NCBI GenBank assembly: GCA_035653615.1
Contig: DASRBN010000031.1
Location: 124,001-188,000 of the forward strand
Direction: 5' to 3'
From: Ktedonobacteraceae bacterium
GTDB taxonomy: Bacteria; Chloroflexota; Ktedonobacteria; Ktedonobacterales; Ktedonobacteraceae
Length of the DNA: 64,000 bases
Under the pieces are notes generated by a model, which saw only the letters and a list, made by a program, of their open reading frames with translations, was not told the DNA's origin and did not search any database. The translations under genes and the position numbers were made by a program. Of the stretch, positions 2,536-21,317 are shown piece by piece. Each line of letters begins with the position of its first letter. The stretch's first letter is position 1.

Positions 2536-2550
2536 TGAAAGGAGTGAGTG

Positions 2551-3744
2551 GTGGAAGGCATGTATAAGCAGAGAGGGGGAAGGGCTATACGGGGCCTGAT
2601 AAAGACGATCATGCCGGGATTGTACTCGAAAGGAGTTTCTGGTGATAGGCGCTTACTCGATATGGATTTTGCCGATCTGTTGGAACGAGAAGTCATTGCT
2701 CTTCAATCGGGCGAGGCGAAAGCAGTTTTGAGGAAAAAAGTCATTCTGGTAACCGGGGCAGCGGGGTCAATTGGTTCAGAATTGTGCAAGCAATTGCTGG
2801 AGTATGAGCCAGAAATGTTGATTGCGCTTGATACCAATGAGACCGGACTTTTTGATCTCGCAAATAGCGTGCGTTCCTATGCCAATGGAGGGTTGTTATT
2901 TCCATTTATCGGCGATATAAAGGATTTTCTACGGATATCTCGCCTGTTTGCGCAAGCTCGCCCTCAGATCATTTTCCACGCGGCGGCTTATAAGCATGTG
3001 CCCTTGCTCGAACAATTTCCCGACCAGGCTGTGCAAACGAATGCCATTGCTACTTACCAGCTTTGCCAAACGGCACAGAAATATGGAGTGGAGCGCTTCA
3101 CTTATATTTCGAGCGATAAGGCCGCGGCCCCTGTCAGCGTGCTGGGCGCATCAAAGCGTTTGGGAGAGGTCATTGTGCAGTCGTTCGCGCAATCGGCGAG
3201 CTACAATACGCAATTTTGTGCCGTGCGTTTTGGCAATGTGATTGGAAGCCGCGGAAGCGTGGTTCCTATTTTCGCGGGCCAGATCGAGTGCGGTGGGCCA
3301 GTAACTGTCACCGATCCAGAAGCCACTCGCTATTTCATGACCGTCGCCGAAGCCTGTGGCCTGGTAATTATGACCTCTGCTATAGCAGAACAGGGTGGGC
3401 TTTATATGCTGGATATGGGAGAGCCTGTTCGCATACTGGATCTCGCGAAAAAGATGATTCACCTGTGTGGTTTGCGCGAAGGACTGGATATCCCCATCAT
3501 GTATACGGGTTTACGTCCCGGTGAGCGTCTTCACGAGACGTTAGTGGCGGCCAACGAAGAGCCTGTTCCCACGATTCATAGCAAAATCCTGAGAGTAGTT
3601 CATACCCATGAGCTGCCTGCGCTCTCGACGATTACGCAGTGGATGCAGACTCTGGAGAAGAGCCTGCAGAGCGAGAGCCTGGAGCAACTGCGCGAGCAGC
3701 TTTTTGAGATGGTGCAGGTTCATGAGTTGGTGACCACAAAATAA
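2551..3744 (+). CDS. FlaA1/CapD-type polysaccharide biosynthesis NDP-sugar dehydratase/epimerase
   Basis: An extended SDR enzyme of the PF02719 family (UDP-GlcNAc 4,6-dehydratase/C4-epimerase group), 397 residues from GTG 2551. The NAD-binding motif is TGAAGSIGSELCKQLL at about residue 70. The later motifs are FHAAAYKHVPLLE, ISSDKAAAPVSVLGASKR and FGNVIGSRGSVVP, then the C-terminal GLRPGERLHE. It is the short form without the four N-terminal membrane helices of WbpM/CapD and is therefore cytosolic. AAAGGAG stands six bases before GTG 2551; a GTG three bases earlier is too close to it. It probably works with the aminotransferase just upstream to make an amino-deoxy sugar nucleotide. Confidence 0.93.
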   Translation: MEGMYKQRGGRAIRGLIKTIMPGLYSKGVSGDRRLLDMDFADLLEREVIALQSGEAKAVLRKKVILVTGAAGSIGSELCKQLLEYEPEMLIALDTNETGLFDLANSVRSYANGGLLFPFIGDIKDFLRISRLFAQARPQIIFHAAAYKHVPLLEQFPDQAVQTNAIATYQLCQTAQKYGVERFTYISSDKAAAPVSVLGASKRLGEVIVQSFAQSASYNTQFCAVRFGNVIGSRGSVVPIFAGQIECGGPVTVTDPEATRYFMTVAEACGLVIMTSAIAEQGGLYMLDMGEPVRILDLAKKMIHLCGLREGLDIPIMYTGLRPGERLHETLVAANEEPVPTIHSKILRVVHTHELPALSTITQWMQTLEKSLQSESLEQLREQLFEMVQVHELVTTK

Positions 3745-3801
3745 AAAAGCAGTGTCAATTCCTGTAGAAACGGTGGCACCCGGTAATGAGGAGTGAGAGA
3801 A

Positions 3802-5532
3802 ATGACCTTTGCACAATATTGGGCGGTGATAACAAAGCGGTGGAAGTTGATTCTTTCCTGCTTCATAGTGGTAGGGCTGGGGACATTTATCGTCAGTAAG
3901 CTTATGACTCCCCTCTACCAATCATCCGTGCTTGTAGAGGTTGCTATCCAGACGGGTAGCAGCCAGGCCGATTACAATAGCTTGCTGGCGAGCGATCAGC
4001 TTGTTCAAACGGAGGCAGAGTTAGCGACCAGTGATTCCGTACTGCGTGAGGTTGCTACGCATTATCCTGGTTTAACGGAGCAACAACTCGCCGGCGAAGT
4101 AACATCAACAACAAAAATCAATACACAGCTTTTCGAGATCGATGTGCTGGATGCAAGTCCAAAGCGGGCCTCAGACCTGGCAAATGATGTTGCGCAGACC
4201 TTGATCAAGCAGCAGTTGCAGCTGGTGCAGCAAAACAACCACCTTGCACAGCAACAACTGCAGCAGGACCTGAATAATACGCAGCAAGAGATCGGCAATG
4301 TCTCCAATCAGATAGCAGCATTGCAGGCGCAGGGAGAAAACCACACCCGTATCGCTGCCCTGCAAGCCCAGCTCAGCGGGTTGCAACAACACTATAACCA
4401 GTGGGAAACCGCCCTGGCACAACTCGAGTTAACGCAGGCACAGGGTGGAGATTTCTTACGTATCGTTCAGCCCGCCCAACCGGCCACCAGGCCTGCGCAG
4501 CCAAATGTGCTTCTGAATAGCGCGGCAGGTCTGGTGGCCGGTTTATTCCTGGGTATATTGCTGGCGCTACTTTTTGAGAATCTGGACACCCGCGTGCATT
4601 CAACCGAGGAACTGGGCGAATTATTGGACTTGCCCGTACTTGCAACCATCTGGCGGGCTACAAGTAACAACCGGGAAGATGTGATTAATCCGACCGGCCA
4701 CAATGCTAATAACGAGGCCTATCGTATCTTACGCACCAATATTGGTTTCTCAGGGATTGATAAACCGCTGCGTTCTTTGATAATCACCAGTGCGGTTCCC
4801 CGCGACGGTAAAAGCGTTGTTGCTGCCAACCTGGCGATTTTTATGGCAAAGGCCGGCAAGAATACGCTGCTTGTCGATGCAGACCTGCGTCTCCCTACTT
4901 TGCACGAGAAGTTTGATTTTCCAGGGGACAAAATGGGCTTGAGCAATGCTATTCTGGCCTTTAGTGCTGCCACAATCCCTCAATCTCCTCTACAGCAACA
5001 TGCTGTTCCTGGTGGGCTTGCCAGGCAACAGGGTGTTGTTTCCATAGCCTCTCCGGCGCTTGATCCTTTTGTCCACTCTGTAGGTATTCCAAACCTGCGT
5101 TTTATGCCATCTGGTCCGCTTCCGCCCAATCCTTCGGAATTACTTGACTCGAAGGCTATGGACCGTCTCTTTAAGGCAATTGAGAATTACGGAGTTGAAG
5201 TGGTCATCTTTGATACCCCACCGATACTGGGTTTATCCGATGCCAGCATTCTGGCCTCAAAAGTAGATGGAGTACTGATCGTCGCGGATATCAATCGGGC
5301 CAATAAGAAGAATCTCAAGCAGGTGAAGGCTATTTTGATGCAGGCGGGCGCGCGTATTGTCGGCTGTGTTGCCAATAAGCAGCGCCAGGCCCGTCACGAT
5401 AAATCTTACTCCTACTACTATTACTATCATGGTGATGAGCAAAAGCGTAATGGTCGGCAGAGCCAGGCTCCCCAGCTTTCTGAGGCTCCCACTTCACCCG
5501 TGAGTATTTTCGGCGTGGCCCACAAGCGATGA
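3802..5532 (+). CDS. Polysaccharide co-polymerase fused to BY-kinase (Wzz/Wzc-like tyrosine kinase)
   Basis: 576 residues. The N-terminal Wzz domain has a membrane helix at about residues 15-35, a periplasmic/extracytoplasmic Gln-rich coiled-coil region (about 125-215) and a second helix at about 235-260. The cytoplasmic P-loop kinase follows: Walker A in PRDGKSVVAANL (about 332), Walker A' LLVDADLRLPTL (about 355) and Walker B VVIFDTPPILG. The C-terminus carries the tyrosine cluster YSYYYYYHGDE, the usual autophosphorylation tail. These proteins set chain length and control export, cycling with a phosphatase; a PHP-type phosphatase gene lies two genes downstream. ATG 3802 is preceded by GAGGAG at a spacing of 8; a GTG at 3793 is less likely. 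Confidence 0.95.
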   Translation: MTFAQYWAVITKRWKLILSCFIVVGLGTFIVSKLMTPLYQSSVLVEVAIQTGSSQADYNSLLASDQLVQTEAELATSDSVLREVATHYPGLTEQQLAGEVTSTTKINTQLFEIDVLDASPKRASDLANDVAQTLIKQQLQLVQQNNHLAQQQLQQDLNNTQQEIGNVSNQIAALQAQGENHTRIAALQAQLSGLQQHYNQWETALAQLELTQAQGGDFLRIVQPAQPATRPAQPNVLLNSAAGLVAGLFLGILLALLFENLDTRVHSTEELGELLDLPVLATIWRATSNNREDVINPTGHNANNEAYRILRTNIGFSGIDKPLRSLIITSAVPRDGKSVVAANLAIFMAKAGKNTLLVDADLRLPTLHEKFDFPGDKMGLSNAILAFSAATIPQSPLQQHAVPGGLARQQGVVSIASPALDPFVHSVGIPNLRFMPSGPLPPNPSELLDSKAMDRLFKAIENYGVEVVIFDTPPILGLSDASILASKVDGVLIVADINRANKKNLKQVKAILMQAGARIVGCVANKQRQARHDKSYSYYYYYHGDEQKRNGRQSQAPQLSEAPTSPVSIFGVAHKR

Positions 5533-5544
5533 GGAGAGCCAGGA

Positions 5545-7617
5545 ATGAATTTTCACAACCAGATGAGGCGCCCCAGTAGGGACAGCGGTTGGTCCCTGTC
5601 CCGGTCGGAGTACAAGGACAGGGACCAACCGCTGTCCCTACTGGGGCGCCAGTACGTGAGGAAAGGGAGATGGCAAGGTCCCAGAAAGCTGTATCTCCTG
5701 GCTTTAGTGCTTTTGTTGTTGGGCCTGCTGCTATCAGTACTGGGGGTCGCCGGAAATCAGATCTATCATTCGGACTATCAGCAGTATCTCTCTCTGGCGG
5801 AGGCGGGAATGCAACACCTGCGCTCGGCGGAAACTCTTTTAGAATCGCTGCCTCAGAAGCCTTTTGACGCCGGTACTATCAAATCCGCCCGGCAAGAATT
5901 TGCTGCCGCGCATACCTTGTTTGCTCAATTAGAGGGCGACCTGCAATCAATTCCGGGAGTAAGTACACTTATCCCCGTCTACGGGGTGCGCTTGAGTACG
6001 GCCTTACACCTGGCCTCTGCCGCGGCAGCGTTATCTCAAGCCGGGATGATCGGCTGTACAATCCTGGGCGTAGTCACGACAGCCTTTAGCGATCCATTGA
6101 ACACAAAGGCGCATGGGTTGACGATGGCGAATTTGAGCCTGATAGATCGCGATTTTGAGCAGGTGAAAGCCTCTTTTGGCCAGGCGCTTGGCGAGGTGAG
6201 CCAGGTTCATCCCAACGACGTGCAGTTCATGTCACAAATCGCTGCCACATTTGCGACATTCCAGAGGAATGTACCCATGCTTAAGGCCTGGCTGGATGCG
6301 CTTGGGAATCTTCTCCCTGTGCTGCCCGCAATTTTGGGCATCAGCTCTCCGGCAAATTACTTGATCGAGGTGCTTGATTCGACCGAATTGAGGCCGGCGG
6401 GTGGTTTCATTGGCAACTATGGTATTGCCACGCTTTCCGGTGGGCGGCTGGCCTCTACCCACATCACCGACGTAGATTTGCTTGATAAGCCTTACGAAAT
6501 GGCCGGGCATCGTATCGCTTACCCGCTATCATATACCTGGTTTCAGCATTACCTGGTTCCGTCTACCTGGAGTTTTCGCGACTCCAATCTCGACGCCGAT
6601 TTCCCAACGGCTGCCAGGTATGGGGAAGCAACGTACAAACAGGAAGGTGGCAATATTGCTGTACAGGGCGTGATTGCCATTACCCCCGCGCTCATTCAAA
6701 AGGCGCTCGCTATCACCGGCCCGATCTACGTCCCCGAGTACAAAGAGATGGTTAGCGCCCAGAACCTTGTTGCCCTGATCCATTTTCACCAGCTTGGAGG
6801 AAGCGCCGCCGGCGAAGGAAGCGACCTGATTCCCTCGCCCGATGGACATTCATCGCTGCGCAAACGCTTTACAGAGTTATTAGCGGAGCATTTTTTTGCT
6901 CGTGTTCAGCAACTTTCCGCCAAAGCATTGCCGGAGTTCCTGCAGCTGATGGCGAATTCGTTGCGCACCAAAGATATTCAAATGTATTTCAACGCCGCCG
7001 GCGCGGAGCATATCCTGCAACTCCTGGGTGTGGATGGGACGATTCAATCGCCGCCGGGAGATCACCTGTTCATAGTAGATGCCAATATTTCACCCAATAA
7101 AGCGAACAGTTTTATTGTGACGACGGTGAATGACCAGGTGACTATTGATGCCCAGGGGAATGCGCATCACCGTACCAGCATCAGCTATGCCTGGACATTG
7201 CCGGGAAAAAACTATGGCTCTCCTACCTACCGCGACTATACGCGCGTCTATGCCCCATTGGATAGCATCTTAACTGACCAGCATGGCTGGCTGCCACAAG
7301 GAACCAGTAAAGCTTTTGGCAGCGAGGTCTGGGCCGGATTTTTTACCCTGGTCTATGGTCAGACCCGTATGATTACCCTGGTCTGGACCAGCCCTGGCGT
7401 GGCTAAAAAGGACCCGAACGGCTGGAACTATCAAGATTTATTACAACGGCAAGCCGGGACGCAGCGCCTGCTAAAAATGCAGCTAGTACTCCCGTCATGC
7501 AGCATCATCGCCGGCAAATCCGTGGGTTTCGTATCCGAGGACGGCCATATGGCTATACTGAGTGAAGCCTGGAATGAAGATATCAATGTAGGGCTTGATT
7601 ATCAGGCCTGCGGATGA
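5545..7617 (+). CDS. DUF4012 domain-containing membrane protein
   Basis: 690 residues. An N-terminal basic cytoplasmic tail (1-50) is followed by one membrane helix (about 51-72). A large extracytoplasmic part contains the DUF4012 signature around ANYLIEVLDSTELRPAGGF and IGNYGIATLSGGRL. The family is common in polysaccharide loci of Chloroflexota and Actinomycetota; its biochemical role is not established, and attachment or processing of cell-surface polymers is a guess. It lies between the BY-kinase and its probable phosphatase, so it is likely co-transcribed with them. The start is secure (GAGGAG, spacing 8). Oddly, codons 8-36 are made of a perfect 35-bp inverted repeat belonging to a dispersed repeat family. 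Confidence 0.9.
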   Translation: MNFHNQMRRPSRDSGWSLSRSEYKDRDQPLSLLGRQYVRKGRWQGPRKLYLLALVLLLLGLLLSVLGVAGNQIYHSDYQQYLSLAEAGMQHLRSAETLLESLPQKPFDAGTIKSARQEFAAAHTLFAQLEGDLQSIPGVSTLIPVYGVRLSTALHLASAAAALSQAGMIGCTILGVVTTAFSDPLNTKAHGLTMANLSLIDRDFEQVKASFGQALGEVSQVHPNDVQFMSQIAATFATFQRNVPMLKAWLDALGNLLPVLPAILGISSPANYLIEVLDSTELRPAGGFIGNYGIATLSGGRLASTHITDVDLLDKPYEMAGHRIAYPLSYTWFQHYLVPSTWSFRDSNLDADFPTAARYGEATYKQEGGNIAVQGVIAITPALIQKALAITGPIYVPEYKEMVSAQNLVALIHFHQLGGSAAGEGSDLIPSPDGHSSLRKRFTELLAEHFFARVQQLSAKALPEFLQLMANSLRTKDIQMYFNAAGAEHILQLLGVDGTIQSPPGDHLFIVDANISPNKANSFIVTTVNDQVTIDAQGNAHHRTSISYAWTLPGKNYGSPTYRDYTRVYAPLDSILTDQHGWLPQGTSKAFGSEVWAGFFTLVYGQTRMITLVWTSPGVAKKDPNGWNYQDLLQRQAGTQRLLKMQLVLPSCSIIAGKSVGFVSEDGHMAILSEAWNEDINVGLDYQACG
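5567..5650. repeat. Perfect 35-bp inverted repeat, in frame within the DUF4012 gene (GTAGGGACAG family)
   Basis: Arms 5567-5601 and 5616-5650 are exact reverse complements separated by 14 bases. The core AGTAGGGACAG...CTGTCCCTACT matches the shorter palindromes at 22158-22189 and 23499-23526. The arms also hold a nested GGTTGGTCCCTGTCC sequence. The element is translated without a stop or frameshift as part of the cytoplasmic tail of the protein, and in mRNA would form a very stable hairpin about 22 bases after the start codon. Confidence 0.9.
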
Positions 7618-7679
7618 CGAGGTCAGATTTGCGGCGATAAGTAAACTGTAAATTAGAAAGTGGGGTGGGGAAAGGGATC

Positions 7680-8390
7680 ATGATCGATACGCACCTGCAT
7701 ATCTTGCCCGGCGTTGATGATGGGCCGGAGTCGTTGGAGGAAGCACTGGCGCTGGCACGCGTGCTGGTGCAGGAGGGTATCTCCGCCGCAATTGCGACCC
7801 CCCATTATAACGATGAGTTCCCGCGGCGCTCGGCTGCGGAAATTGCAGCCCGTGTCTATGATATGCAATACGCGCTGAATCGTAGCGGTATCCCATTACG
7901 TCTCTTTCCCGGTCACGAAGCGCTTATCAAGCCAGGATTGCTGGAAGATATCCAGGCTGGCCGGCTCGCGACGCTCAATGGCAGTCGCTACCTGCTGCTG
8001 GAATTGTGGAACAATGCATGGCTGCCTGAAACGGAGCGCGTGATTTTTGAGCTGCGAGCTGGCGGTATTGTGCCGGTAATTGCTCATCCCGAGCGCTATC
8101 GCGCTATCCAGCAGGACTCATCTCGTCTAGCTGCGTTACAGCGGCAGGGAGTGTTAGCCCAATTGACGGCCAGCAGTCTGATAGGTATGCAGGGACGAAC
8201 GACGAGGCGCTGCGCCGAAATGCTTCTCAAGAAAGGGTTGATTCATTGTATCGCCAGCGACGCGCATGGGCTGCGGAAGCGAGTGCCCGGCGTTGCGCGG
8301 GGCTTGCAGTGCGCCGAGAAATTGCTTGACAGGTCTTCTATCTATCGCATGATAGAGGGCCAGCCGGCAGCAATTGTGAGTAACAGGTAA
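7680..8390 (+). CDS. CpsB/CapC/YwqE-type protein-tyrosine phosphatase (PHP domain)
   Basis: A 236-residue metal-dependent phosphatase of the PHP superfamily. It begins with the family's typical MIDTHLHILPGVDDG, and the other metal-ligand motifs are IATPHYND, FPGHEA, VIAHPERY and ASDAHG. It should dephosphorylate the tyrosine tail of the BY-kinase encoded upstream; together they form the usual kinase/phosphatase switch of capsule and exopolysaccharide assembly. The start at ATG 7680 is set by the conserved N-terminus; a GTG 15 bases upstream would add residues not seen in the family. The protein has no signal peptide and is cytosolic. Confidence 0.93.
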   Translation: MIDTHLHILPGVDDGPESLEEALALARVLVQEGISAAIATPHYNDEFPRRSAAEIAARVYDMQYALNRSGIPLRLFPGHEALIKPGLLEDIQAGRLATLNGSRYLLLELWNNAWLPETERVIFELRAGGIVPVIAHPERYRAIQQDSSRLAALQRQGVLAQLTASSLIGMQGRTTRRCAEMLLKKGLIHCIASDAHGLRKRVPGVARGLQCAEKLLDRSSIYRMIEGQPAAIVSNR

Positions 8391-8447
8391 TGTGGTTGTA
8401 GCGGTGTAGGGTTGCTTGCTAATATAACAGGCTCGATAGGAAATAGA

Positions 8448-9899
8448 GTGGTGTTGAAAAGCGGTATATTCGGGCAAAGAACTATAGGCGAAAAAGGAAC
8501 AGGTCTATTATCTCCCTCTTCTATTTTTCCTCTGATGGGGCTGCTATTGGCGGTCGTATTGGCTGTTATACTGGGGAGAAGAGATGAGGCTACAGATGCG
8601 TTTATTGCCGGGGCTATTTTATTCGCGCTTGTGCTTATCCTACAACAGCATGAATTAGCTGTAGTGATGGTAATTGCCGTTCATCTCTACATAGACTGGT
8701 ATCTGGGATACAATTTAGCCGCATTGGTCATGGAATTTCTGTTACTGGGCGCCCTCTTTTTAGCTCGAACAGCCAGGTACCACTGGACGGTTCCGCAAGG
8801 TCTATGGCTCTGGGGGCTATTGCTAGCAGTCAGTCTATTGCCCGCGACCCAGGGAATTACCCTTTCTGATGGTTTTTACTACTATTTCAATGTTATTTTT
8901 AATTCGTTCATGATATTCTGGATAGGATTAGTTCTCGCCAGAAATATTGCATCTGTTCGACGCTTTTTCGAGATATTTTCGGCCTTTTGTACACTGATGG
9001 CTATTCATACCATCATTCAGGCTACGACCGGTATATTTCTGCTTGCTTCATCGCGCTTTAACGCTTACCTGGCGCTGGTGTCAGATTATACACTGGCTTA
9101 TTCGGATATCCAGCGCGCGGGATCATTTTTTGTGAACCCTGATTCGAGCGGCAGTTTCTTTGGCATCGTAATCTTTGTTCCCCTTTGCCTCTTTTTTTGC
9201 AGTCGTTCTTTGCCCAGGAAACTCTTCTACCTTGCCGAATTGCTGCTGATGTTAGTAGCATTGCTTTTCACGTATAGTACCGGCGGGTGGGTGGCAGCAG
9301 CAGCTGGTTTCCTGGTTTTTATGCTATTTGTTGGTCATAACCGCTACCGTTTGCTACTGCCATTTTTCTTTGTCCTCATTATCTTTGCATTAATAACTTT
9401 TTTCCCTGAGCAAATCAACCTGCAAATCCAGCATGCGCTTACTCCGAGCGAGGCCTCGTTACGCGAAGCCGCATGGCAGACGGGAATACAAGTCATCCGT
9501 GCCTTTCCTTTAACGGGTATAGGCCTGGGTCGTTATGACTATATTGTGAGAGCAGACCCCTATCGAGTACCACAACAATACCGGCCTCTGGCCCATCCGC
9601 ATAATTCGTATATCGAACTCGCGGCTTTAGGTGGTGTGCCAATCCTACTCATTTTTATGGCGCTGCTTGCATTTACATTCTGGCTGGGAGTTCGCAACTG
9701 GCACCGGATAAAGGGGCAGGCAAGTTCGTTATATGCCGGCGGCCTGGCTCTTGTAGTTGCTTTAAGCGTTAATAGCATGTTCATTCCCGGATGGACTCTC
9801 CCACCCCTGGTGGTGATAGGCTGGTTGATTCTTGGTATCATCTCTTCTCCTTTGCCTTTCAAAAATCAGGCTGTCGAAACGGAGAAGAAGAATACGTAG
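8448..9899 (+). CDS. O-antigen polymerase/ligase-like membrane protein (Wzy/WaaL family)
   Basis: About 483 residues with around 11-12 hydrophobic helices and a larger extracytoplasmic loop near residues 355-395. The loop includes LTGIGLGRYDY and LAHPHNSYIELAALGG, which matches the conserved H-N-x-Y/L-E region of PF04932 proteins. Beside a Wzz/BY-kinase and a flippase gene it most likely polymerises repeat units; a ligase role cannot be excluded. The start is unclear: GTG 8448 has TAGGA at a spacing of 6, while TTG 8412 would add 12 residues. The stop is 3 bases from the next start, so the genes are co-transcribed. Confidence 0.88.
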   Translation: MVLKSGIFGQRTIGEKGTGLLSPSSIFPLMGLLLAVVLAVILGRRDEATDAFIAGAILFALVLILQQHELAVVMVIAVHLYIDWYLGYNLAALVMEFLLLGALFLARTARYHWTVPQGLWLWGLLLAVSLLPATQGITLSDGFYYYFNVIFNSFMIFWIGLVLARNIASVRRFFEIFSAFCTLMAIHTIIQATTGIFLLASSRFNAYLALVSDYTLAYSDIQRAGSFFVNPDSSGSFFGIVIFVPLCLFFCSRSLPRKLFYLAELLLMLVALLFTYSTGGWVAAAAGFLVFMLFVGHNRYRLLLPFFFVLIIFALITFFPEQINLQIQHALTPSEASLREAAWQTGIQVIRAFPLTGIGLGRYDYIVRADPYRVPQQYRPLAHPHNSYIELAALGGVPILLIFMALLAFTFWLGVRNWHRIKGQASSLYAGGLALVVALSVNSMFIPGWTLPPLVVIGWLILGIISSPLPFKNQAVETEKKNT

Positions 9900-9902
9900 T
9901 CG

Positions 9903-12155
9903 ATGAGAAGAGTCTTTATTCCCATGAGTAGATGGACTGGCAAAATAGAAACGAAGCTCCGACTCACAGAGGCCCGGAATAACGCTATATTAGCTCAATA
10001 TCCTGTTGACTTAGCGCCTCTAATGCAGGACAAAAAGGATACTTCAGGCTTTAGCAGAGAAAAAAGGAGCATTCATCCTGTTGAGTGTCATCCAACCATT
10101 GTCGCACAACATGCCCTGGTTCATTGGAACCAATACATTACAAATGCTGCTGAATCGCAATGTAGCAAGTTCCTGGTAAGCGCAAACTGGCTTATTGAGA
10201 ACGAGCGGCGCATTGGTAAGGATGCTGGCGGATGGCCGATCTCTTTTCCGCATCCTACGCTTCCTGGTGGAGATTCCTGGCTGTCAGCGTCAGCACAGGG
10301 AACTGCAATCTCTGTTCTCCTGCGCGCCTATCAGCTTACTCAAAAAGAAGAATTCTTTGAGTGCGCGCAACGTGTAGCTCGTACTTTCGAGCGAGATATA
10401 CTTGATGGTGGAGTAAGTGTCCCAATAGGTAAAGAAGGCGTCTTTTTCGAAGAGGTGGCCATTTATCCTGCGTCACACTCCCTGAGCGGTTTCATCTTTG
10501 GACTGCTGGGACTCTATGAGTATGTGGCAGTCACAGGAGACGTTGAAGTTGAGAAGCTGATTGCACGGGGCCTCGCGACGATGCACGGCCTTATCGCTGA
10601 ATTTGATGCTGGTTTCTGGACGCGGTTTGATCTGCTCCACCGTGATCTTGCGACACCGGCGCAGCTGGTCTTGCAGGTTGAACTGCTTGCGGCTCTTGCC
10701 AGGCTTTCTGGTTGCGATCATTGCTTGCGGCTGGTTGCACGTTGGCGTCGGTACCAGCATCAATTCGGCTCTCGCCTGCGTTACCAGCTTGTAAGTTATT
10801 GTCGCCTCTATAGTCGTGCAATTTGGGGAAGAGTACGCGATGCTCTTTTCCCCGAAGCTCAAACTTCGTCTATCCTGCGTGTTTGTGTGCCGGTTACTGC
10901 AATGCCCGTTATGGGTGGCATGCATAGTGTCCTGGCAAAGATAGCGCGGGTGACCTCCGATATCTGGCGCATGGAGTACCTGGCGCAGGCTGTGGGACCA
11001 AATCCTGATGGCCTGGTTATCCATAAGTTCGGTACAGCGAAGATGGCTCCCTGGCAGTTTCCTGCTGTCTGGCTCTATTCGCTCGCGGCGGCTCGAAAGT
11101 TATGTTCGCTTATGGCTCATGGCGCCCGTTACGATCTTATTTTGACGCAGGATGGTGTCTTCACTTCTGCTTTTACTGCGCTTCTGGGCAGATTAGCCGG
11201 TGTGAGGATAGTATGCATCGACCATGGCAACCTGAGATTGCTCAACAGCCCTGTTTATCGCGCCGAGCGCCTGCAAACGCTGTCTGAGATGCGATGGCCC
11301 TCGCGGTTGCTGAGGCGCATCTTGTTTAAGTGCTACTGGCCTTCGCTTTCCATCCTTGCGTGGCTTTCCGCTCGTTTTGTCGATCATTATTTCATTCCAG
11401 GCGTTCCTGGTGATGGGACGGAAGACGTACTCGCGCAACTTGGCGTGCAGCAAAGTAGGATTACGCGCTTCGCGAATATGATAGACGTGGATCGCCATGT
11501 CATTCCCGATGAAGTGGCGCGGGTACGTTCACGTGAGGCATACGGCATTGCCGGGAACGCTATCGTTATCGCTATGATCTGTCGCCTCGCTCCTGAGAAA
11601 GGAATAGACACCGCGCTGGAAGCAATAAGCCTGGCGCTTTCCTCGCTTACTCCAGAATTGCGAGGGCGAGTTCGCATGATAATCGCGGGCGATGGGCCGC
11701 TGCGGGCAGAGGTTGAGGAGGATATCCGCGGACGGCAGCTTGAGCAGGTATGTTTGCTGTGGGGCCAGGCTTCGCAAGCAGATGTCATTTCGCTGCTTGG
11801 TATAAGTGACATATTCCTGTATACGAGTAGACGGGGAGCAGGCTATCCTATGGCGATTCTAGAGGCAATGGCATCTGAATGCGCAGTCATTGCCACAAAT
11901 GATCCCCTGGCCAACGAATATATGCTGGCAGAGGGGCGTGGCATCATCGTGCCTATAGACGATGCGAGAGCGGTAAGCGATGCTCTTGTATCGCTGATAC
12001 ATAATGGGCAATTGTGCCGCCTGATGGGGAGCAGGGCCAGAAGCTATGTGGCGGCTTACCATAGCGCCATAACATTGAGGCGATCCTTACTGCGCGTAAC
12101 CCATTGGTCGTCATTGGATGAGTCTTTGCAGCTTGAAAGCGTTGAGAGACAATGA
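9903..12155 (+). CDS. Two-domain protein: D-glucuronyl C5-epimerase-like domain fused to family 4 glycosyltransferase
   Basis: 750 residues. Residues about 100-295 resemble the C-terminal catalytic domain of D-glucuronyl C5-epimerases (PF06662). The matching stretches are GGDSWLSASAQGTAISVLLR, then ILDGGVSVP, FFEEVAIYPASHSLSGFIFG, LLGLYEY and GFWTRFDLLH. In heparan sulfate and heparosan systems this fold inverts glucuronate to iduronate in the polymer. Residues about 320-750 are a GT-B glycosyltransferase with RLAPEKGIDTALEA, IIAGDGPLRAEVEE and the donor motif GAGYPMAILEAMASECAV. Start ATG 9903 has just a weak ribosome site; ATG 9924 is an alternative. The fusion suggests that one protein adds a sugar and acts on a uronate in the same repeat unit. 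Enzyme activity is inferred, and catalytic tyrosines were not verified. Confidence 0.85.
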   Translation: MRRVFIPMSRWTGKIETKLRLTEARNNAILAQYPVDLAPLMQDKKDTSGFSREKRSIHPVECHPTIVAQHALVHWNQYITNAAESQCSKFLVSANWLIENERRIGKDAGGWPISFPHPTLPGGDSWLSASAQGTAISVLLRAYQLTQKEEFFECAQRVARTFERDILDGGVSVPIGKEGVFFEEVAIYPASHSLSGFIFGLLGLYEYVAVTGDVEVEKLIARGLATMHGLIAEFDAGFWTRFDLLHRDLATPAQLVLQVELLAALARLSGCDHCLRLVARWRRYQHQFGSRLRYQLVSYCRLYSRAIWGRVRDALFPEAQTSSILRVCVPVTAMPVMGGMHSVLAKIARVTSDIWRMEYLAQAVGPNPDGLVIHKFGTAKMAPWQFPAVWLYSLAAARKLCSLMAHGARYDLILTQDGVFTSAFTALLGRLAGVRIVCIDHGNLRLLNSPVYRAERLQTLSEMRWPSRLLRRILFKCYWPSLSILAWLSARFVDHYFIPGVPGDGTEDVLAQLGVQQSRITRFANMIDVDRHVIPDEVARVRSREAYGIAGNAIVIAMICRLAPEKGIDTALEAISLALSSLTPELRGRVRMIIAGDGPLRAEVEEDIRGRQLEQVCLLWGQASQADVISLLGISDIFLYTSRRGAGYPMAILEAMASECAVIATNDPLANEYMLAEGRGIIVPIDDARAVSDALVSLIHNGQLCRLMGSRARSYVAAYHSAITLRRSLLRVTHWSSLDESLQLESVERQ

Positions 12156-13888
12156 ATGTATCAGGGGACGAGTACAGCCGGGAGAATGTCACCGGTACTT
12201 ACGCTTTCGAGGATGACTACGTTGACCAGTTACCTACGCTGCCGGTTCCTGTATTCGGAATGGAGCAAATCCCATCACAACTGAATGTTAGATTAACGAA
12301 CGAAAACGCACACCGGCATGGGTATGGGACTCAGGATAGTTTGCCTTTCTATGATATGCAAACCTGGTATTTGCCGGTCGTCCATGCAAAACATATCCCC
12401 AGAGCTAAGATAGATGTTCAGGCAGCCGGCGCCTCCGATGTGGATAGCTATATCCTGCTTATACGCAACCTGGTGAAGAGTTCGGGTGTTTATGCCTTAT
12501 CTGCGATTGCCGGTCCGTTAATTTCCCTGGCCCTTGCGCCATTTTTGACGCACTCGCTCTCGCCTACTGATTATGGTATTCTTACCATCCTTAGCACTGC
12601 CATCTCTCTTGGTGCGGGCATCACACAAATGGGTCTTGCAACGGCATTTTTCCGTGCCTACAACTATGACTATACATCTCCCGGTGATCGACGCTATGTT
12701 CTCGCGACCACCACTCTATTGCTCTGCCTTATCTCAATTCCGGTCGCCATTGGAGCCGCAATCGGCTCTTCCTACCTGGCGGATCTCTTACTGGGGAGTT
12801 CAGTGCCTGGGAGTCTTATCGTCATAGCAGCGGGTGTATTAGTCGTACAAAATCTATCCGTTCCGGGTTTCGCCTGGCTGCGCGCGGAAAGTCGCGCGCT
12901 TTTCTATTCTTTGTTGTCGGTCAGCAATGTGCTTATCACCTTGATAGCCAACCTGGTCCTGGTAGGCGTGTTTCATTGGGGTATCACGGGATCGCTGATT
13001 GCTATGGGCCTTGGATATAGCGGCACAGTACTCTGCACGATGCCGTTTATCCTGCTGCATGCGGGTGCCAGGATACGTATTGATATCGCGCGGAGCATGC
13101 TATCATTTGGAGCGCCGCTTGTTCTCAATGTGATTTCCTACTGGGTGCTGCAGGTGCTTGATCGCTACCTGCTGAGTCGCTTTGGCTCGCTCGCCCAGAC
13201 TGCCATGTACGCGGTAGTTTATACGCTGGGGTCGGCCCTGTCTGTGGTAGTCATCGCGCCTTTCACACTGGCCTGGCCTACGGCGATGTTTGCGATTGCT
13301 AAGCGTGACGATGCGTCTCAAGCCTTCCGGCTCTTATTTCGCTGGCTGTGTATCGTGCTGCTCTTCTCCGCGTTTGGCCTGTCGCTTGCCGGCCAGGTAC
13401 TGTTGGACTGGCTCTTCCCGCCGGCTTACCATGCAGAAGCGCTGATTATTCCTGTCGTCGCCGTCTCAATTGCGTTCTATGGCGTCTATTTCATCTTCAT
13501 GATAGGAGCAAACATTACGCGTAAAACCTGGTTAGGCGGCGTGTTTGTGACCATTGCGGCCATCGTCAATACCGCCCTTAACCTGGTTCTCATTCCACAG
13601 GATGGCGCGATGGGAGCTGCTCTTGCAACCTTAGTCGCATACGCTGTACTTGCCGCGATAGCCTATGTAGTGAACCAGCGCATCTATCCTATCCCTTTTG
13701 AGATTGATATCTTCATTGCTGCTCTGCTGGTTGGCGCTGTCCTCTATCTCGGCAGTGAATTCCTGGTAGGATTTCGGGTAACAGAAAGCTCCCTGGGTAT
13801 CTTCGCAATAGCAGTTGGCCTTTATACAGGTATCCTGATACTGCTGGGGAAACTTCCATACCGGCACGTACCAGGACGAAACGGATAA
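12152..13888 (+). CDS. Wzx-like polysaccharide flippase (MOP superfamily)
   Basis: 578 residues with about 12-14 membrane helices from residue 108 on, starting VKSSGVYALSAIAGPLISLA, with the PF01943/PF13440 pattern of lipid-linked repeat-unit flippases. The first 105 residues are a polar extension of no recognised family, longer than usual for Wzx and probably cytoplasmic. The start codon overlaps the stop of the upstream gene by four bases (ATGA), which indicates translational coupling with the epimerase/glycosyltransferase. It would move undecaprenyl-linked units across the membrane for the polymerase encoded two genes upstream. Confidence 0.92.
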   Translation: MNVSGDEYSRENVTGTYAFEDDYVDQLPTLPVPVFGMEQIPSQLNVRLTNENAHRHGYGTQDSLPFYDMQTWYLPVVHAKHIPRAKIDVQAAGASDVDSYILLIRNLVKSSGVYALSAIAGPLISLALAPFLTHSLSPTDYGILTILSTAISLGAGITQMGLATAFFRAYNYDYTSPGDRRYVLATTTLLLCLISIPVAIGAAIGSSYLADLLLGSSVPGSLIVIAAGVLVVQNLSVPGFAWLRAESRALFYSLLSVSNVLITLIANLVLVGVFHWGITGSLIAMGLGYSGTVLCTMPFILLHAGARIRIDIARSMLSFGAPLVLNVISYWVLQVLDRYLLSRFGSLAQTAMYAVVYTLGSALSVVVIAPFTLAWPTAMFAIAKRDDASQAFRLLFRWLCIVLLFSAFGLSLAGQVLLDWLFPPAYHAEALIIPVVAVSIAFYGVYFIFMIGANITRKTWLGGVFVTIAAIVNTALNLVLIPQDGAMGAALATLVAYAVLAAIAYVVNQRIYPIPFEIDIFIAALLVGAVLYLGSEFLVGFRVTESSLGIFAIAVGLYTGILILLGKLPYRHVPGRNG

Positions 13889-13938: not shown

Positions 13939-14883
13939 ATGACATCTGCAAGAGTAGAAACATGGTGGCATAAGAGCGCCAGGTGGTTAGCGACAAGTAC
14001 TTTGAGAGTCCTGCCTATACCACCAGCGCAGAAGTGGCGACTGGCAGGCGTCATTGCTGACAGGCTAGAATCCCCGGCCAGTCCATCGAAGGTGGTATGG
14101 ATGGCAAGTGGTTTCAAGATGCTGTTGGACCTGGGCAAGCCATATGAGCGACGGAGCTATTACACAGGCGTATATGATGCTCATCTCACACGCCTGTGTA
14201 AGCTGCTCTTGCGTCCTGGAGATACCGTGATAGATGGAGGAGCGAACATTGGGTATATGTCGTTATTGGCAGCCAAGTGCATTGGCAGATATGGCTGCGT
14301 CCACGCTTTTGAACCTGTTCCGCCGACATTTGAGATTCTCAAGCAGAATATACAATTGAATGGCTGCTCTAACATTCGCGCTAATCCCCTGGCGCTTGCA
14401 CAGAAGGTGGGAGCGTTATGTTTTGCCTTGCCTGTTGATGCTGGCACCGGTAAAACACTCGACCGGCTTGCGACGCTGGCACAACTGCGGGACGGCTCGC
14501 GATTTGAAGTCCCTGCCTGCCCATTAGATGAGTATGTGGCATCATCGGGCATTACGTCGATCAGGCTTCTCAAGCTGGACCTGGAAGGAGGTGAGGTAGC
14601 CGCGATTGATGGGATGCGGCAATTGCTAAGTGAGCAGCGTATTTCGTATCTCATCAGCGAGTTCAATCCACCTTTGCTCGATCAACTGGGTATTCCTCAT
14701 TCTGCCCTACAAGAGACTTTGCGGAACTATGGCTACAGTTGTTACCGCATTCACTACTACGTCGGATTCGCGCGCCTGGAATATCTGCAACTACTAGATA
14801 CTTCCTGTGAGAATGTACCTGGTGAATTTGGTGACTATCTCTTTGTTGCTCCAGGACTACCTGTTCCTGGCAAGAAGCGATAA
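13939..14883 (+). CDS. FkbM family methyltransferase
   Basis: A SAM-dependent methyltransferase of the FkbM family, 314 residues. Motif I is VIDGGANIGYMSLLAAK (about residue 97), followed by VHAFEPVPPTFEILKQNI and LLKLDLEGGEVAAIDG. Family members O-methylate sugars or polyketides, and in this locus a sugar hydroxyl of the polymer is the likely target (inference). A textbook GGAGGAGGT ribosome site lies 8-10 bases before the ATG. It follows the flippase gene by 50 bp. The 235 bp after it hold no gene that can be supported. Confidence 0.92.
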   Translation: MTSARVETWWHKSARWLATSTLRVLPIPPAQKWRLAGVIADRLESPASPSKVVWMASGFKMLLDLGKPYERRSYYTGVYDAHLTRLCKLLLRPGDTVIDGGANIGYMSLLAAKCIGRYGCVHAFEPVPPTFEILKQNIQLNGCSNIRANPLALAQKVGALCFALPVDAGTGKTLDRLATLAQLRDGSRFEVPACPLDEYVASSGITSIRLLKLDLEGGEVAAIDGMRQLLSEQRISYLISEFNPPLLDQLGIPHSALQETLRNYGYSCYRIHYYVGFARLEYLQLLDTSCENVPGEFGDYLFVAPGLPVPGKKR

Positions 14884-15118: not shown

Positions 15119-16108
15119 TTGCGTATTCTTTATATTCATAACATCAACCGGGTAGCTGAGACCTATAGTAAAATGCTGGCTCAGCACGGTCACCCGGTAG
15201 ATCTCTATGAACCCAACCTTGTGGGGGGAGCTGCACCCCTGCCGGTAAAACTTGCACTCATGCCTGCGCGTGTTATCAGCCTGCGGAACATTGTAAGCAA
15301 ACTGAACTCGAACTATTTTGATCTCGTGCATATTCACTGGGCCACATATGGCGCGCTTGGCCTGGTGAGCCGCGTCCCCTATGTTGTTGAATGCCACGGG
15401 GATGATGTGCGAAATCGCTTGAAGAACCCTTTCTTCCGCCCATTATTAAGTCCCATTTTGCGCAGAGCTGGGGCTGTGTTGTGCATTACGCCTGATTTAC
15501 TCCCTATTGTGCGGGCCATTCGCCCTGATGCTATCTTCTTACCCGCTCCTATCGATACAGAGCAATTCGCACCTCTAGAGAAAAAAGAGGATCATCCCTG
15601 GTGCATCTTGCTATTTGCTCGCCTGGACCCTGACAAAGGTACTGATATTGCCATACAGGGTATTGAGTGCTTCGTTGAGCGTCATCCAGGTGTTCGCGTA
15701 CAGCTACTGGACTGGGGACTACTTAAAAGCAGGTACAAACGCCTGTATGGAGACCGTTTTGAGTTTGTTCCACCGGTCGCGTCACAGGAAGTGCAGCAAT
15801 TGATCTGCTCGGCAGACGTTGTTGTTGGCCAGTTCGCACTGGGCGCGATAGGGCTGTCGGAGTTACAGGCCATGAGTTGCGCCAGGCCGGTCATTGCCTC
15901 GTTTCGCTACACATCGGCCTACTCGTCTCCGCCCCCACTATGCCAGGCTCAAACGCCCGGGGAAGTGGATCGGCAACTTGAGAACCTTTTCCAGCACCCG
16001 GAGGAGGCTTCAGCAATCGGCCAACGCGCGCGCGCGTGGATCATAGAACATCATGAAAGGCGCATCCTTGCGGCCAGGCTGGAAAAACTTTATCAGACCA
16101 TCATATAG
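15119..16108 (+). CDS. Glycosyltransferase family 4
   Basis: A 329-residue GT-B glycosyltransferase starting with TTG at 15119 (MRILYIHNINRVAETYSKML), preceded by AAAGGGG at a spacing of 6. The acceptor half includes VHIHWATYGAL and VVECHGDD; the donor half includes LFARLDPDKGTDIAIQGIE and GLSELQAMSCARPVIASFRY, the E-x7-E-like region. It probably adds one sugar of the repeat unit on the cytoplasmic side. It is the last forward gene of this block and converges on the reverse propeller gene, with just 10 bp between the stops. Confidence 0.9.
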   Translation: MRILYIHNINRVAETYSKMLAQHGHPVDLYEPNLVGGAAPLPVKLALMPARVISLRNIVSKLNSNYFDLVHIHWATYGALGLVSRVPYVVECHGDDVRNRLKNPFFRPLLSPILRRAGAVLCITPDLLPIVRAIRPDAIFLPAPIDTEQFAPLEKKEDHPWCILLFARLDPDKGTDIAIQGIECFVERHPGVRVQLLDWGLLKSRYKRLYGDRFEFVPPVASQEVQQLICSADVVVGQFALGAIGLSELQAMSCARPVIASFRYTSAYSSPPPLCQAQTPGEVDRQLENLFQHPEEASAIGQRARAWIIEHHERRILAARLEKLYQTII

Positions 16109-16118
16109 GTCTCCACTT

Positions 16119-18119
16119 TTATACAGTCGTGTAGGAGTAAAGGTTACTGCCAGAGGCAAAGTAGATCGTTGGGCCGATCATGGCAAAGCCTGCCGTAATC
16201 GTAACACTGGACGGTATCAATGTCACCTGATTCGTATTTTGCAAGCTGATACTGAAGACCCCTTGAGACGATAATCCCCAGATTTTTCCGTTGTAAATAG
16301 CCGCGCTGTTGTAAATAGGACTTGAGAAGGGGAGCTTACTGCCATTGTTGATAAATGTCCCGGTGGCAGGATTAAAAATAAAGAGGTAGTTCCCGCTGCT
16401 GTTTGTCGCTATACCATAGACATAGCCATTGGCCGGGTTGACAAGCAGGTTGGTGATTGTATTCGGGTTGCTTACGCCTGGTATAAAGTAGCGGTGAATA
16501 ACAGTATTGTTTGTCACGTCCCAGCTGAATAGTTGTGCAGAGGAGGTTGAGGGATTTGTGCCACCTCCGCCGTAGATGGTTGTGCCACCGATGACGCAAT
16601 AGCTTCCACCACTATTGAGGCAGTTTCCCCTGGTGGTTGTCAGAGAAACAACACCCTGATTCTGGATTGGGAAGTACTCCTGGATATCGTTATTATTGAG
16701 TGTGTTCCAGGTGACGAGGGGGCCGCTCAGCTTGCCATATGAGGCAATAGCGCCTATGTAGAGGTGATTATTTGCTGCCCCTATCATCGCTTCAGGTCGG
16801 AGGTCGCTCTGAAAGTTGTTGCTTGAGATAACGGCGGGATTTGTGCTTCCATTAAAAGGTTTTGAGGGGTCGTAAATTTCCAGGGATGGTGAGGTGTAAG
16901 ACGCCACATAGAAGAGATTATTATAGGCCAGTTGCGCGTATGGCTCTCCATTTCCTATCTGTCCATTCATTACCACTCCTGCCGTGGGATTGGCAGGATT
17001 AAAGTTGAAGAAATCATATGGCAATACTGTTCCTCCGTAAACCTTACCATCCGGTCCTGCCGCGAAACGGAAGATAGAGAGATTCCTCCCCGTGTAGGTG
17101 TACGGAAAGATGCTGGTACCCTTACCTGGATGGATGACGGTTATTTGTGAAGTGCTTACAGAGATGGTACCACCATCGTTTAAGATATTTGTTGCTGCCG
17201 GGGGAACATAGGAGTTGATTTGCGTATAGTCTCCCTCACTGAGTTTGTAGTATTGGCAAGGAGAAGTTCCGCATACCTCCGCGTGAATAGCGCTGTCCAG
17301 GCCCAGATAGACCCAGGCTATACCGGCGCTTGAGGCAGTAATAAGCGGCGTGATGCTATTCGTAGCAACATTATAGGCAATAACCCGGCTTGATACAGAA
17401 CCAAGGCCGACATAGATGTAAGGCGAGTTCGGATCCGGGTCTGCAATACAGAACCTGGCATACTGTTCCTGGTAAGCAGGATCCATTGACCCAAGATTCA
17501 GCAATTGCGGATAGGGATCGAGCGGGTCGTAGCTGATGAGATCGGCTGATGGATAGGTACATCCATACACTTTGTGGTTGTAGGGACTGGTTGTGACCTG
17601 CCAGATATAGCTTTGTGCTGCTCCACTTTTGGGATCGCGAGGAGCCTGGCCGATGTCAATCAATTTTCCCTGCGTGATGTCGAACTTTAACACGTGAGCG
17701 TTTGGCAAGCTGCCCAGATACATATTATGGTCTGCTCCAACGGTCAGCGCCCACGCAGCTTCTTCACTACTAACCGGTGATGGGTAGACCCTGTCCTGGC
17801 CCGTATTGGGATCAATGGCGACGAGGTCCATTGTGCCATTGATATAGGTATAGGTAACATAATACAACTGGTGAGATGCTGACTGGCCCGGACCTACCAT
17901 ACTGTTCTGTATAGCTCCCTGACCCTGTGCATGACCAAGATACTGGTATCCTGCCGTTTGAGGACGCTCCAGGGAAGAAGCTGTCACATTGAACGTGGGA
18001 AGTATCGTATTTGCTGGTAGAGCGAAAACGGCCTGAGGTAGCGAACTGGCGCAACAGAAGAGTATCAAGAGGAAGAGAATTTTTGACTGAAAAGACAGAT
18101 TCCATTTCTTGTCAGGCAT
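16119..18119 (-). CDS. Secreted beta-propeller-like protein of unknown function
   Basis: 666 residues. A signal peptide is clear: basic MPDKKWNLSFQSK, the hydrophobic stretch ILFLLILFCCASSLPQAVFA, and a likely cleavage after VFA. The rest is made of about ten repeated blade-like units in which a G-x-V/L-Y-G/A pattern recurs, e.g. DHNMYLGSLPN, DGKVYGGTVLP, NNHLYIGAIAS and NGYVYGIATNS. This suggests a WD40/NHL/YVTN-type propeller, exported and probably surface-bound. No catalytic motif was recognised. GAGGTGG precedes the ATG by 7 bases. It lies inside the polysaccharide locus on the opposite strand, so a role in carbohydrate recognition is possible but unproven. Confidence 0.8.
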   Translation of the reverse strand: MPDKKWNLSFQSKILFLLILFCCASSLPQAVFALPANTILPTFNVTASSLERPQTAGYQYLGHAQGQGAIQNSMVGPGQSASHQLYYVTYTYINGTMDLVAIDPNTGQDRVYPSPVSSEEAAWALTVGADHNMYLGSLPNAHVLKFDITQGKLIDIGQAPRDPKSGAAQSYIWQVTTSPYNHKVYGCTYPSADLISYDPLDPYPQLLNLGSMDPAYQEQYARFCIADPDPNSPYIYVGLGSVSSRVIAYNVATNSITPLITASSAGIAWVYLGLDSAIHAEVCGTSPCQYYKLSEGDYTQINSYVPPAATNILNDGGTISVSTSQITVIHPGKGTSIFPYTYTGRNLSIFRFAAGPDGKVYGGTVLPYDFFNFNPANPTAGVVMNGQIGNGEPYAQLAYNNLFYVASYTSPSLEIYDPSKPFNGSTNPAVISSNNFQSDLRPEAMIGAANNHLYIGAIASYGKLSGPLVTWNTLNNNDIQEYFPIQNQGVVSLTTTRGNCLNSGGSYCVIGGTTIYGGGGTNPSTSSAQLFSWDVTNNTVIHRYFIPGVSNPNTITNLLVNPANGYVYGIATNSSGNYLFIFNPATGTFINNGSKLPFSSPIYNSAAIYNGKIWGLSSQGVFSISLQNTNQVTLIPSSVTITAGFAMIGPTIYFASGSNLYSYTTV

Positions 18120-18525: not shown

Positions 18526-19263
18526 TTAGTCGAGGCTAATGACACAAAGAAGGTGGGTATTGAGGAATTTTAGCTGCTCCAGCATATTTGCCAGCCAGTA
18601 AGCTCGCGGTGCGATTATCCGTGCGATTGGGGGAGCCAGCGTCAGCCGCCGGAACGTATAGCTGGCTCCCGGTCGATTGAACAACTGTAAAATACGCCGG
18701 CGCGAGAAGCCTCTCACTGCCGGGTTGCGTGGATTGGAATAGGCAAAATCGTAGCAAAGGATGAGGCCACCTGGTTTAAGGACGCGCCAGACCTCGCCGG
18801 CAATTTTCTCGCAAAGCTCGTCATTGAGGATGGAACTGAACACGACAAAAAGCGTGACCAGGTCAAAACTTGCGTCAGGATAAGGTAACTGGTGAGCGCT
18901 GCCTGCTCGCCAATCGATGGCTGGATTCAGGCTGCGCGCCATCTCGATTCGCTCGTTCAGCAGATCAATCCCTGAAAGATTACCTGGCTTAGCTCCATAT
19001 GCTGTAAAACGTTGTAGCTGCATACCCATGCCACAACCAATATCCAGTATCTTTTTGTCACCGAGATCATTAAATGCGTGCCGTTTGAGCAATGCCAGCA
19101 GGCGCCGCTCAAGGCTATGCGACTGGAGAAGAGCGGCCTCGTTAAAAAGGCTGTAGCGGCCGCTCAATTCGGCGCTGCTTGCCCGGCGTTGATATTCTAC
19201 CCGTATGCGTTTGATCTCTTGTGCTACATCTGTATGCCTCTGCTGGTCATACGTTCCCGTCAT
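18526..19263 (-). CDS. Class I SAM-dependent methyltransferase
   Basis: 245 residues. Motif I is ILDIGCGMGMQLQRFTAYG (about residue 70). It is followed by the acidic end of strand 2 (GIDLLNERIEMAR), the Methyltransf_11 pattern LPYPDASFDLVTLFVVFSSI and EVWRVLKPGGLILCYDF. The ATG at 19263 overlaps the stop codon of the upstream asparagine synthase gene (ATGA), so the two are translationally coupled and probably act on the same product. The substrate is unknown; a sugar or surface-polymer building block is likely given the locus. An in-frame ATG 27 bases upstream is less likely. Confidence 0.9.
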   Translation of the reverse strand: MTGTYDQQRHTDVAQEIKRIRVEYQRRASSAELSGRYSLFNEAALLQSHSLERRLLALLKRHAFNDLGDKKILDIGCGMGMQLQRFTAYGAKPGNLSGIDLLNERIEMARSLNPAIDWRAGSAHQLPYPDASFDLVTLFVVFSSILNDELCEKIAGEVWRVLKPGGLILCYDFAYSNPRNPAVRGFSRRRILQLFNRPGASYTFRRLTLAPPIARIIAPRAYWLANMLEQLKFLNTHLLCVISLD

Positions 19264-21155: not shown

Positions 21156-21317
21156 ACATGGCCAACCTCCCAACCCTCGATGCCAAACAATGCTTCCCTT
21201 TAAAATGTGTAGTACCTCATTTAACAGTATACGAAACTCAGCAAACGGAACTCTTTTTTGTCTATCCGTATAATACATACCAGAAGAGCATGATGGATTA
21301 TCTGGGAGGATGGAAGT

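Follow-up and report, generated by a model that had tools for sequence, protein, structure and literature searches.

A glucuronyl C5-epimerase-like domain with a non-canonical active site, fused to a GT4 glycosyltransferase in an exopolysaccharide cluster of Ktedonobacteria

The window analyzed here, a 64,000-nucleotide stretch of the genome of a Ktedonobacteraceae soil bacterium, contains a gene whose product joins a domain resembling D-glucuronyl C5-epimerases (GLCE) to a GT4 glycosyltransferase (GT). The question raised by this locus is whether the N-terminal domain acts as an epimerase on a lipid-linked unit before export, as a first-pass annotation of the DNA had suggested, or whether it now serves another role. 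The reading favored here, to which we give roughly even chances, is that of an active GT4 enzyme carrying a domain of cytosolic C5-epimerase ancestry that has become non-canonical and is probably a glycan-binding module.

Architecture and predicted fold of the fusion protein

The fusion gene (9903-12155, plus strand) is a single intact frame of 750 codons with an ATG start. As described at first pass, it shares a four-base overlap (ATGA, positions 12152-12155) with the downstream flippase gene. Pfam analysis revealed a C5-epim_C match (PF06662) at residues 109-282 (E = 1.5e-29; 103.3 bits, compared to a gathering score of 23.3) and a GT4 match (PF00534) at residues 543-714 (E = 2.2e-27). Chance or misassembly was rejected as the origin of the fusion, since the complete domain arrangement was found again in 14 of 60 related genomes.

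When the first 356 residues were compared with PDB chains using phmmer, GLCE was the sole match above noise (4e-19). The N-terminal half of a full-length model, built with 12 relatives (mean pLDDT 77), matched human GLCE with a Z-score of 23.3. For the N-domain modeled alone with a wider alignment (AlphaFold; pLDDT 89.7), this value rose to 28.0 (rmsd 3.1 over 249 residues, 27% identity; Foldseek E = 4.9e-12), while the next fold, GH76, reached only 16.2. The predicted structure thus speaks against an unrelated alpha/alpha barrel, the outcome that the first-pass annotation had considered damaging to its case. GH76, cellobiose 2-epimerase and unsaturated glucuronyl hydrolases were rejected as closest kin, because they share the general fold with Z-scores of 14-16, compared to 28 for GLCE. 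The N-terminal beta-hairpin and beta-sandwich domains of GLCE are absent from the fusion protein, in which the stretch before the first main barrel helix is limited to about 63 residues, in part helical and modeled with low confidence.

The C-terminal half of the full-length model has the whole two-lobed GT-B fold of the retaining GT4 glycosyltransferases PimB', MshA and BshA (Z 25-26; 26.3 for PimB') and shares with them R561, K566 and E654 (alignment A2). The fusion protein differs from these enzymes in the E-x7-E motif: the second glutamate (E654) is invariant, but the first is replaced by A646 at a site that is variable in the family. The GT4 assignment was made by profile and fold, although this first glutamate is absent. 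Across the fusion family the site (motif residues 646-654; 11838-11864, plus strand) is occupied by A, T or G. Its replacement may go with an unusual donor, e.g. a 3-acetamido sugar. Pfam matches and predicted folds therefore bear out both the GLCE-type helical domain at the N-terminus and its junction with a whole GT4 domain, as claimed at first pass.

Neither a signal peptide nor a membrane helix, both already reported as missing, was apparent from the hydropathy of residues 1-320 (peak 19-residue value 1.38; 0.14 in the first 60 residues), and the protein looks cytosolic. In all seven testable canonical PF06662 proteins of other Chloroflexota, the domain is preceded by a hydrophobic segment (19-residue hydropathy 1.9-2.6), in line with export or anchoring in the membrane; a comparable segment is missing from the window protein and from the fusion family.

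The fusion family and its active-site residues

The fusion was identified in 15 of the 61 genomes compared (that of the window and 14 relatives), all belonging to the same order, and judged by these sequences it is a conserved Ktedonobacteria family. In a species-level collection, its carriers were Dictyobacter, Thermogemmatispora, MAGs of Ktedonobacteraceae and Ktedonobacterales, and one contig filed under Acidobacteria. PF06662 matches were present in 30 of 400 Chloroflexota genomes; in the long PF06662 frames from outside the order that were read among these, no GT was seen. A contig scan for fusions outside Ktedonobacteria yielded only the single contig filed under Acidobacteria, and a plasmid scan gave three distant PF06662 matches of single-domain type.

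On that contig (L059:1-8867, from an Acidobacteria MAG) lies an exopolysaccharide cluster of Ktedonobacteria-like type, with a tyrosine-keeping fusion gene whose domain is 51% identical; either misbinning or recent transfer would explain this. In Dictyobacter kobayashii (G026), the fusion gene (L028:8032-10073) and the 3-dehydrogenase gene (L028:18048-19090) are each split into two overlapping frames, either by real frameshifts or by assembly errors. A further protein (G132, L034:373-2322, minus strand) combines a PF06662 domain with intact Y560 and Y578 and a C-terminal half that by eye resembles polysaccharide deacetylases.

The catalytic residues of human GLCE are E499, Y500, N510, Y560 and Y578 (PMC13308652). 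Tyr578 takes the role of the base, and the proton is donated by Glu499 (PMC12834895). At the corresponding positions the alignment placed E184, V185, S195, F242 and Q254 of the window protein. The whole stretch between residues 207 and 284 was read and contains no tyrosine; the loss of Y560 and Y578 is therefore independent of the alignment, and an alignment error was rejected as its cause (residues 208-283 lack any Tyr). The catalytic tyrosines whose alignment had been proposed as a check are both missing (F242, Q254), and epimerase activity of the window protein is not supported by its sequence, in which Y500, N510, Y560 and Y578 are gone and E499 alone is kept. Among the other Chloroflexota PF06662 proteins, N510, Y560 and Y578 are kept in nine of nine, and E499 in seven of nine.

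The residue comparison covered human GLCE, nine canonical Chloroflexota relatives and 18 family members, i.e. 15 fused proteins, two stand-alone ones (G030s and G009s) and a second fused copy that is truncated where its contig ends (G046s). Within the family, Y560 and Y578 are retained only by G030s and G009s, the fused proteins G041f and G010f, and contig L059, which has threonine at the E499 position. Both G030 and G009 (Dictyobacter arantiisoli) contain the stand-alone PF06662 gene inside the cluster of the fusion (L019:8376-9425 near the fused copy at L019:9429-11648, and L021:6598-7695 near L021:14405-16627, respectively). In each of them the stand-alone copy keeps the tyrosines and the fused copy lacks them, likely a division of labor after duplication. 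No further PF06662 copy was found in the genome of the window (assembly 95% complete), and epimerization by a second such protein was rejected on this ground.

Phylogenetic analysis placed the window protein and every tyrosine-less member in one clade (support 97/93), which also includes the tyrosine-keeping G010f, although its placement is not firm. The window protein pairs with G017f (99/91), both stand-alone copies and G041f branch outside the clade, and a long branch leads to the Thermogemmatispora copies. One or two changes of the tyrosine state are needed on this tree.

In six Thermogemmatispora orthologs, all tyrosine-less, dN/dS was 0.11-0.37 for the N-domain, compared to 0.04-0.10 for the GT part. 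Purifying selection therefore still acts on the tyrosine-less N-domain, but more loosely than on the GT part. All 13 full-length fused proteins of alignment A2 share W111, S128-A129, Q132, D165, D168-G-G170, F182-E-E184 and Y188-P-A190, and H192 is nearly invariant. Several of the invariant residues sit in the loops bearing the GLCE catalytic glutamate. Y188 is common to the tyrosine-keeping relatives, as is H192 with the exception of G041f.

Gene cluster and candidate uronate

As shown in Table 1, an initiating transferase, Wzx, Wzy, a Wzz/BY kinase and GTs are encoded together, as in a Wzx/Wzy-dependent exopolysaccharide cluster. The order wzy - fusion - wzx, with all three genes adjacent, is found in the window and in nine relatives.

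Table 1. Position and supporting matches of the genes, domains and codons discussed in the text.
Feature	Position in window	Strand	Evidence or remark
Initiating sugar-phosphate transferase (polyprenyl glycosylphosphotransferase)	612-1319	+	TIGR03025 1.9e-78, below cut-off
DegT-type sugar aminotransferase (PseC/PglE-like)	1291-2535	+	PF01041 1.5e-129
UDP-HexNAc 4,6-dehydratase-like protein	2548-3744	+	PF02719 1.8e-100
Wzz/BY-kinase chain-length regulator	3793-5532	+	PF02706 1.2e-11; TIGR01007 8.4e-47
DUF4012 protein	5545-7617	+	also near the G017, G009, G041 and G046 fusions
CpsB/CapC-type phosphatase	7665-8390	+	PF19567 6e-53
Wzy-type polymerase (O-antigen ligase/polymerase family), directly upstream of fusion	8412-9899	+	PF04932 1.9e-23; same position in 9 relatives
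Fused protein, PF06662 C5-epimerase-like domain and GT4 glycosyltransferase	9903-12155	+	750 aa; architecture kept in 14 related genomes
C5-epimerase-like (alpha/alpha) domain, residues ~62-296	10086-10790	+	PF06662 E 1.5e-29; GLCE Z 28.0 (predicted model)
E184 codon, at GLCE E499 site; sole catalytic residue retained	10452-10454	+	alignment
F242 codon, at GLCE Y560 site	10626-10628	+	alignment
Q254 codon, at GLCE Y578 (catalytic base) site	10662-10664	+	alignment
GT4 glycosyltransferase domain, residues ~325-735	10875-12107	+	PF00534 2.2e-27; PimB' Z 26.3; R561, K566, E654 kept
Wzx-type flippase, ATGA overlap with fusion gene	12152-13888	+	PF01943 1.6e-9; after fusion in 9 relatives
FkbM-type methyltransferase	13939-14883	+	PF05050 4e-15
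Second GT4 glycosyltransferase of cluster	15119-16108	+	PF13579 2.8e-12
666-aa ORF between cluster and AsnB-like gene	16119-18119	-	no Pfam or NCBIfam match at thresholds used
AsnB-like gene	19260-21368	-	TIGR01536 368 bits, above cut-off; opposite strand, ~7 kb from fusion

The DUF4012 protein is a frequent companion of the fusion clusters. The AsnB-like gene, taken at first pass as a sign of a uronate-containing polymer, is indeed present in the region, but it is encoded on the opposite strand, about 7 kb from the fusion. Its score also exceeds the threshold of the model for ordinary asparagine synthase (TIGR01536), and it is thus weak evidence for a uronamide. A link between the UDP-sugar SDR genes found in the cluster and the keeping of the tyrosines was dropped: the pattern was mixed and the SDRs reach no curated cut-off.

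Five genes that may account for a uronate are arranged in a row just before the window (C31:117813-123185). They encode (i) an acetyltransferase, whose best solved relative is the LPS acetyltransferase 3mqg (8.8e-40), (ii) a DegT aminotransferase, matching WbpE at 1e-67 (not its best hit), (iii) a sugar 3-dehydrogenase (NF040723, 2.7e-90, below cut-off), (iv) a UDP-sugar 6-dehydrogenase (TIGR03026, 1.1e-88) and (v) a 2-epimerase, whose best solved relative is the UDP-2,3-diacetamido-2,3-dideoxy-glucuronate (UDP-GlcNAc3NAcA) 2-epimerase 8sxv (2.4e-114). Five steps of this kind constitute the known route to UDP-ManNAc3NAcA (PMC10622841). All five enzyme types of the Pseudomonas aeruginosa Wbp pathway (WbpA, B, E, D and I) are matched by homology in these consecutive genes. 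The two systems differ in the 3-dehydrogenase, for which the best, below-cut-off model is the archaeal UDP-GlcNAc 3-dehydrogenase.

Whole or partial sets of such 2,3-diaminouronate genes are located near the fusion in eight relatives (G017, G030, G009, G041, G012, G028, G026 and G022). The 3-dehydrogenase was detected in 14 of 15 fusion genomes, compared to 5 of 32 others of the order (p = 4e-7), and in 7 of 8 versus 4 of 18 when counted by genus, a count that corrects in part for common descent (p = 0.003). The gene set is consistent, by homology, with the earlier statement that the locus handles a uronic acid. This acid is likely 2,3-diacetamido-2,3-dideoxy-D-mannuronate or -glucuronate rather than glucuronate (GlcA), and inversion at its C5 would lead to L-gulo or L-ido sugars. 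GlcA is a possible alternative, since a second UDP-sugar dehydrogenase gene is present elsewhere in the genome.

Possible roles of the N-domain and comparison with known systems

In the favored reading, that of a GT4 enzyme with a glycan-binding N-domain, the GT4 half would add a sugar to the polyprenyl-linked repeat unit at the cytosolic face, after which Wzx would flip the unit and Wzy polymerize it. The N-terminal half would derive from a PF06662-type uronyl C5-epimerase of the cytosol; in the ancestors, and in some living relatives, this enzyme may act, alone or fused to GT4, on the 2,3-diacetamido-uronic acid of the lipid-linked unit. In the lineage of the window, the base Y578 and Y560 were lost and the other conserved loop residues, including the glutamate, were retained; the N-domain has therefore probably ceased to epimerize by the Tyr/Glu mechanism, and may now hold or recognize the uronate-bearing acceptor for the GT.

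Two observations count against a binding module: the near-invariant E184, Y188 and H192 could mean a remade catalytic site, and the faster evolution of the N-domain could reflect shifting substrate specificity. The protein would then be bifunctional, with the GT4 part adding D-2,3-diacetamido-uronate and the N-domain epimerizing its C5 on the lipid-linked product before export, through a rebuilt site in which E184 and either Y188 or H192 replace Y578, to give an L-gulo or L-ido sugar. Such an enzyme, which we consider rather doubtful, would fit the invariance of E184 and Y188 (nearly so of H192) in full-length fused proteins, the purifying selection on the N-domain and the 2,3-diaminouronate genes beside the fusion. 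There is also a precedent: Agl32 of Halobacterium salinarum C5-epimerizes a lipid-linked glycan before export (PMC13308652), and missing GLCE residues are no proof of inactivity because it does so with none of them. The case for Y188 and H192 as replacement catalysts is weakened, however, since nearly all relatives that keep Y578 carry them too, and they thus look like clade markers rather than an evident substitute for Y578. Selection on the N-domain is also looser than on the GT part, and G030 and G009 each combine a stand-alone copy that keeps the tyrosines with a fused copy that lacks them, which suggests that the fused domain gave up the reaction.

It is unlikely that the N-domain is a structural fossil, i.e. 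a folding or dimerization platform for GT4 that binds no sugar. The loss of the catalytic tyrosines, the higher dN/dS and the long branch to the Thermogemmatispora copies are compatible with this role, but purifying selection persists, and a mere scaffold need not keep invariant residues in the loops of the GLCE glutamate. Highly improbable is the first-pass reading of a canonical glucuronyl C5-epimerase acting on GlcA, which the PF06662 homology and fold and the second UDP-sugar dehydrogenase gene would suit, but for which four of five catalytic residues are missing and the sole sugar 6-dehydrogenase detected near the cluster is part of the 2,3-diaminouronate set.

For the family as a whole, it may tentatively be proposed that the cytosolic PF06662 proteins of Ktedonobacteria, stand-alone or GT-fused, convert a lipid-linked 2,3-diacetamido-2,3-dideoxy-D-hexuronate to its L-gulo or L-ido counterpart ahead of export by Wzx; the window member would have a remade or silenced site. 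If these readings are right, tyrosine-keeping stand-alone proteins, active-looking fusions and decayed fusions form a natural series in which a glycosyltransferase captured a uronyl epimerase, and the enzyme became, probably, a recognition module. The tyrosine-keeping relatives would be candidate cytosolic bacterial C5-epimerases for lipid-linked diaminouronates, with a bearing on the origin of L-configured diaminouronates in bacterial polysaccharides. Automatic annotation would label all family members glucuronyl C5-epimerases, which is misleading for the window protein.

The open-licence literature yielded no account of PF06662 fused to GT4, nor of bacterial PF06662 proteins that form a cytosolic family. 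Epimerization of a lipid-linked unit before export, put forward at first pass as a new mode, is already known from Agl32 (PMC13308652). Likened by description, Agl32 and the fusion family have in common a single helical domain and missing GLCE residues, and pre-export action on a lipid-linked sugar may be a further shared trait. They differ in that Agl32 is an archaeal, stand-alone protein that acts on GlcA, with NMR proof, and the match between its predicted fold and GLCE is poor (5.0 A over 184 residues; PMC13308652), whereas the fusion N-domain matches GLCE well. Bermanella marisrubri has a D-glucuronyl C5-epimerase (Raedts et al. 2013, as cited in PMC13308652) that is active with a reported GLCE mechanism; it represents a bacterial C5-epimerase of shown activity, likened here by its description in that source. 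With human and zebrafish GLCE (6HZZ, 4PXQ), the fusion protein shares the helical fold (Z 28, 27% identity) and the FEE/YEE glutamate loop; it differs from them in lacking the beta-hairpin and beta-sandwich domains and Y500, N510, Y560 and Y578, in its cytosolic-looking, GT4-joined form, and in its likely different uronate.
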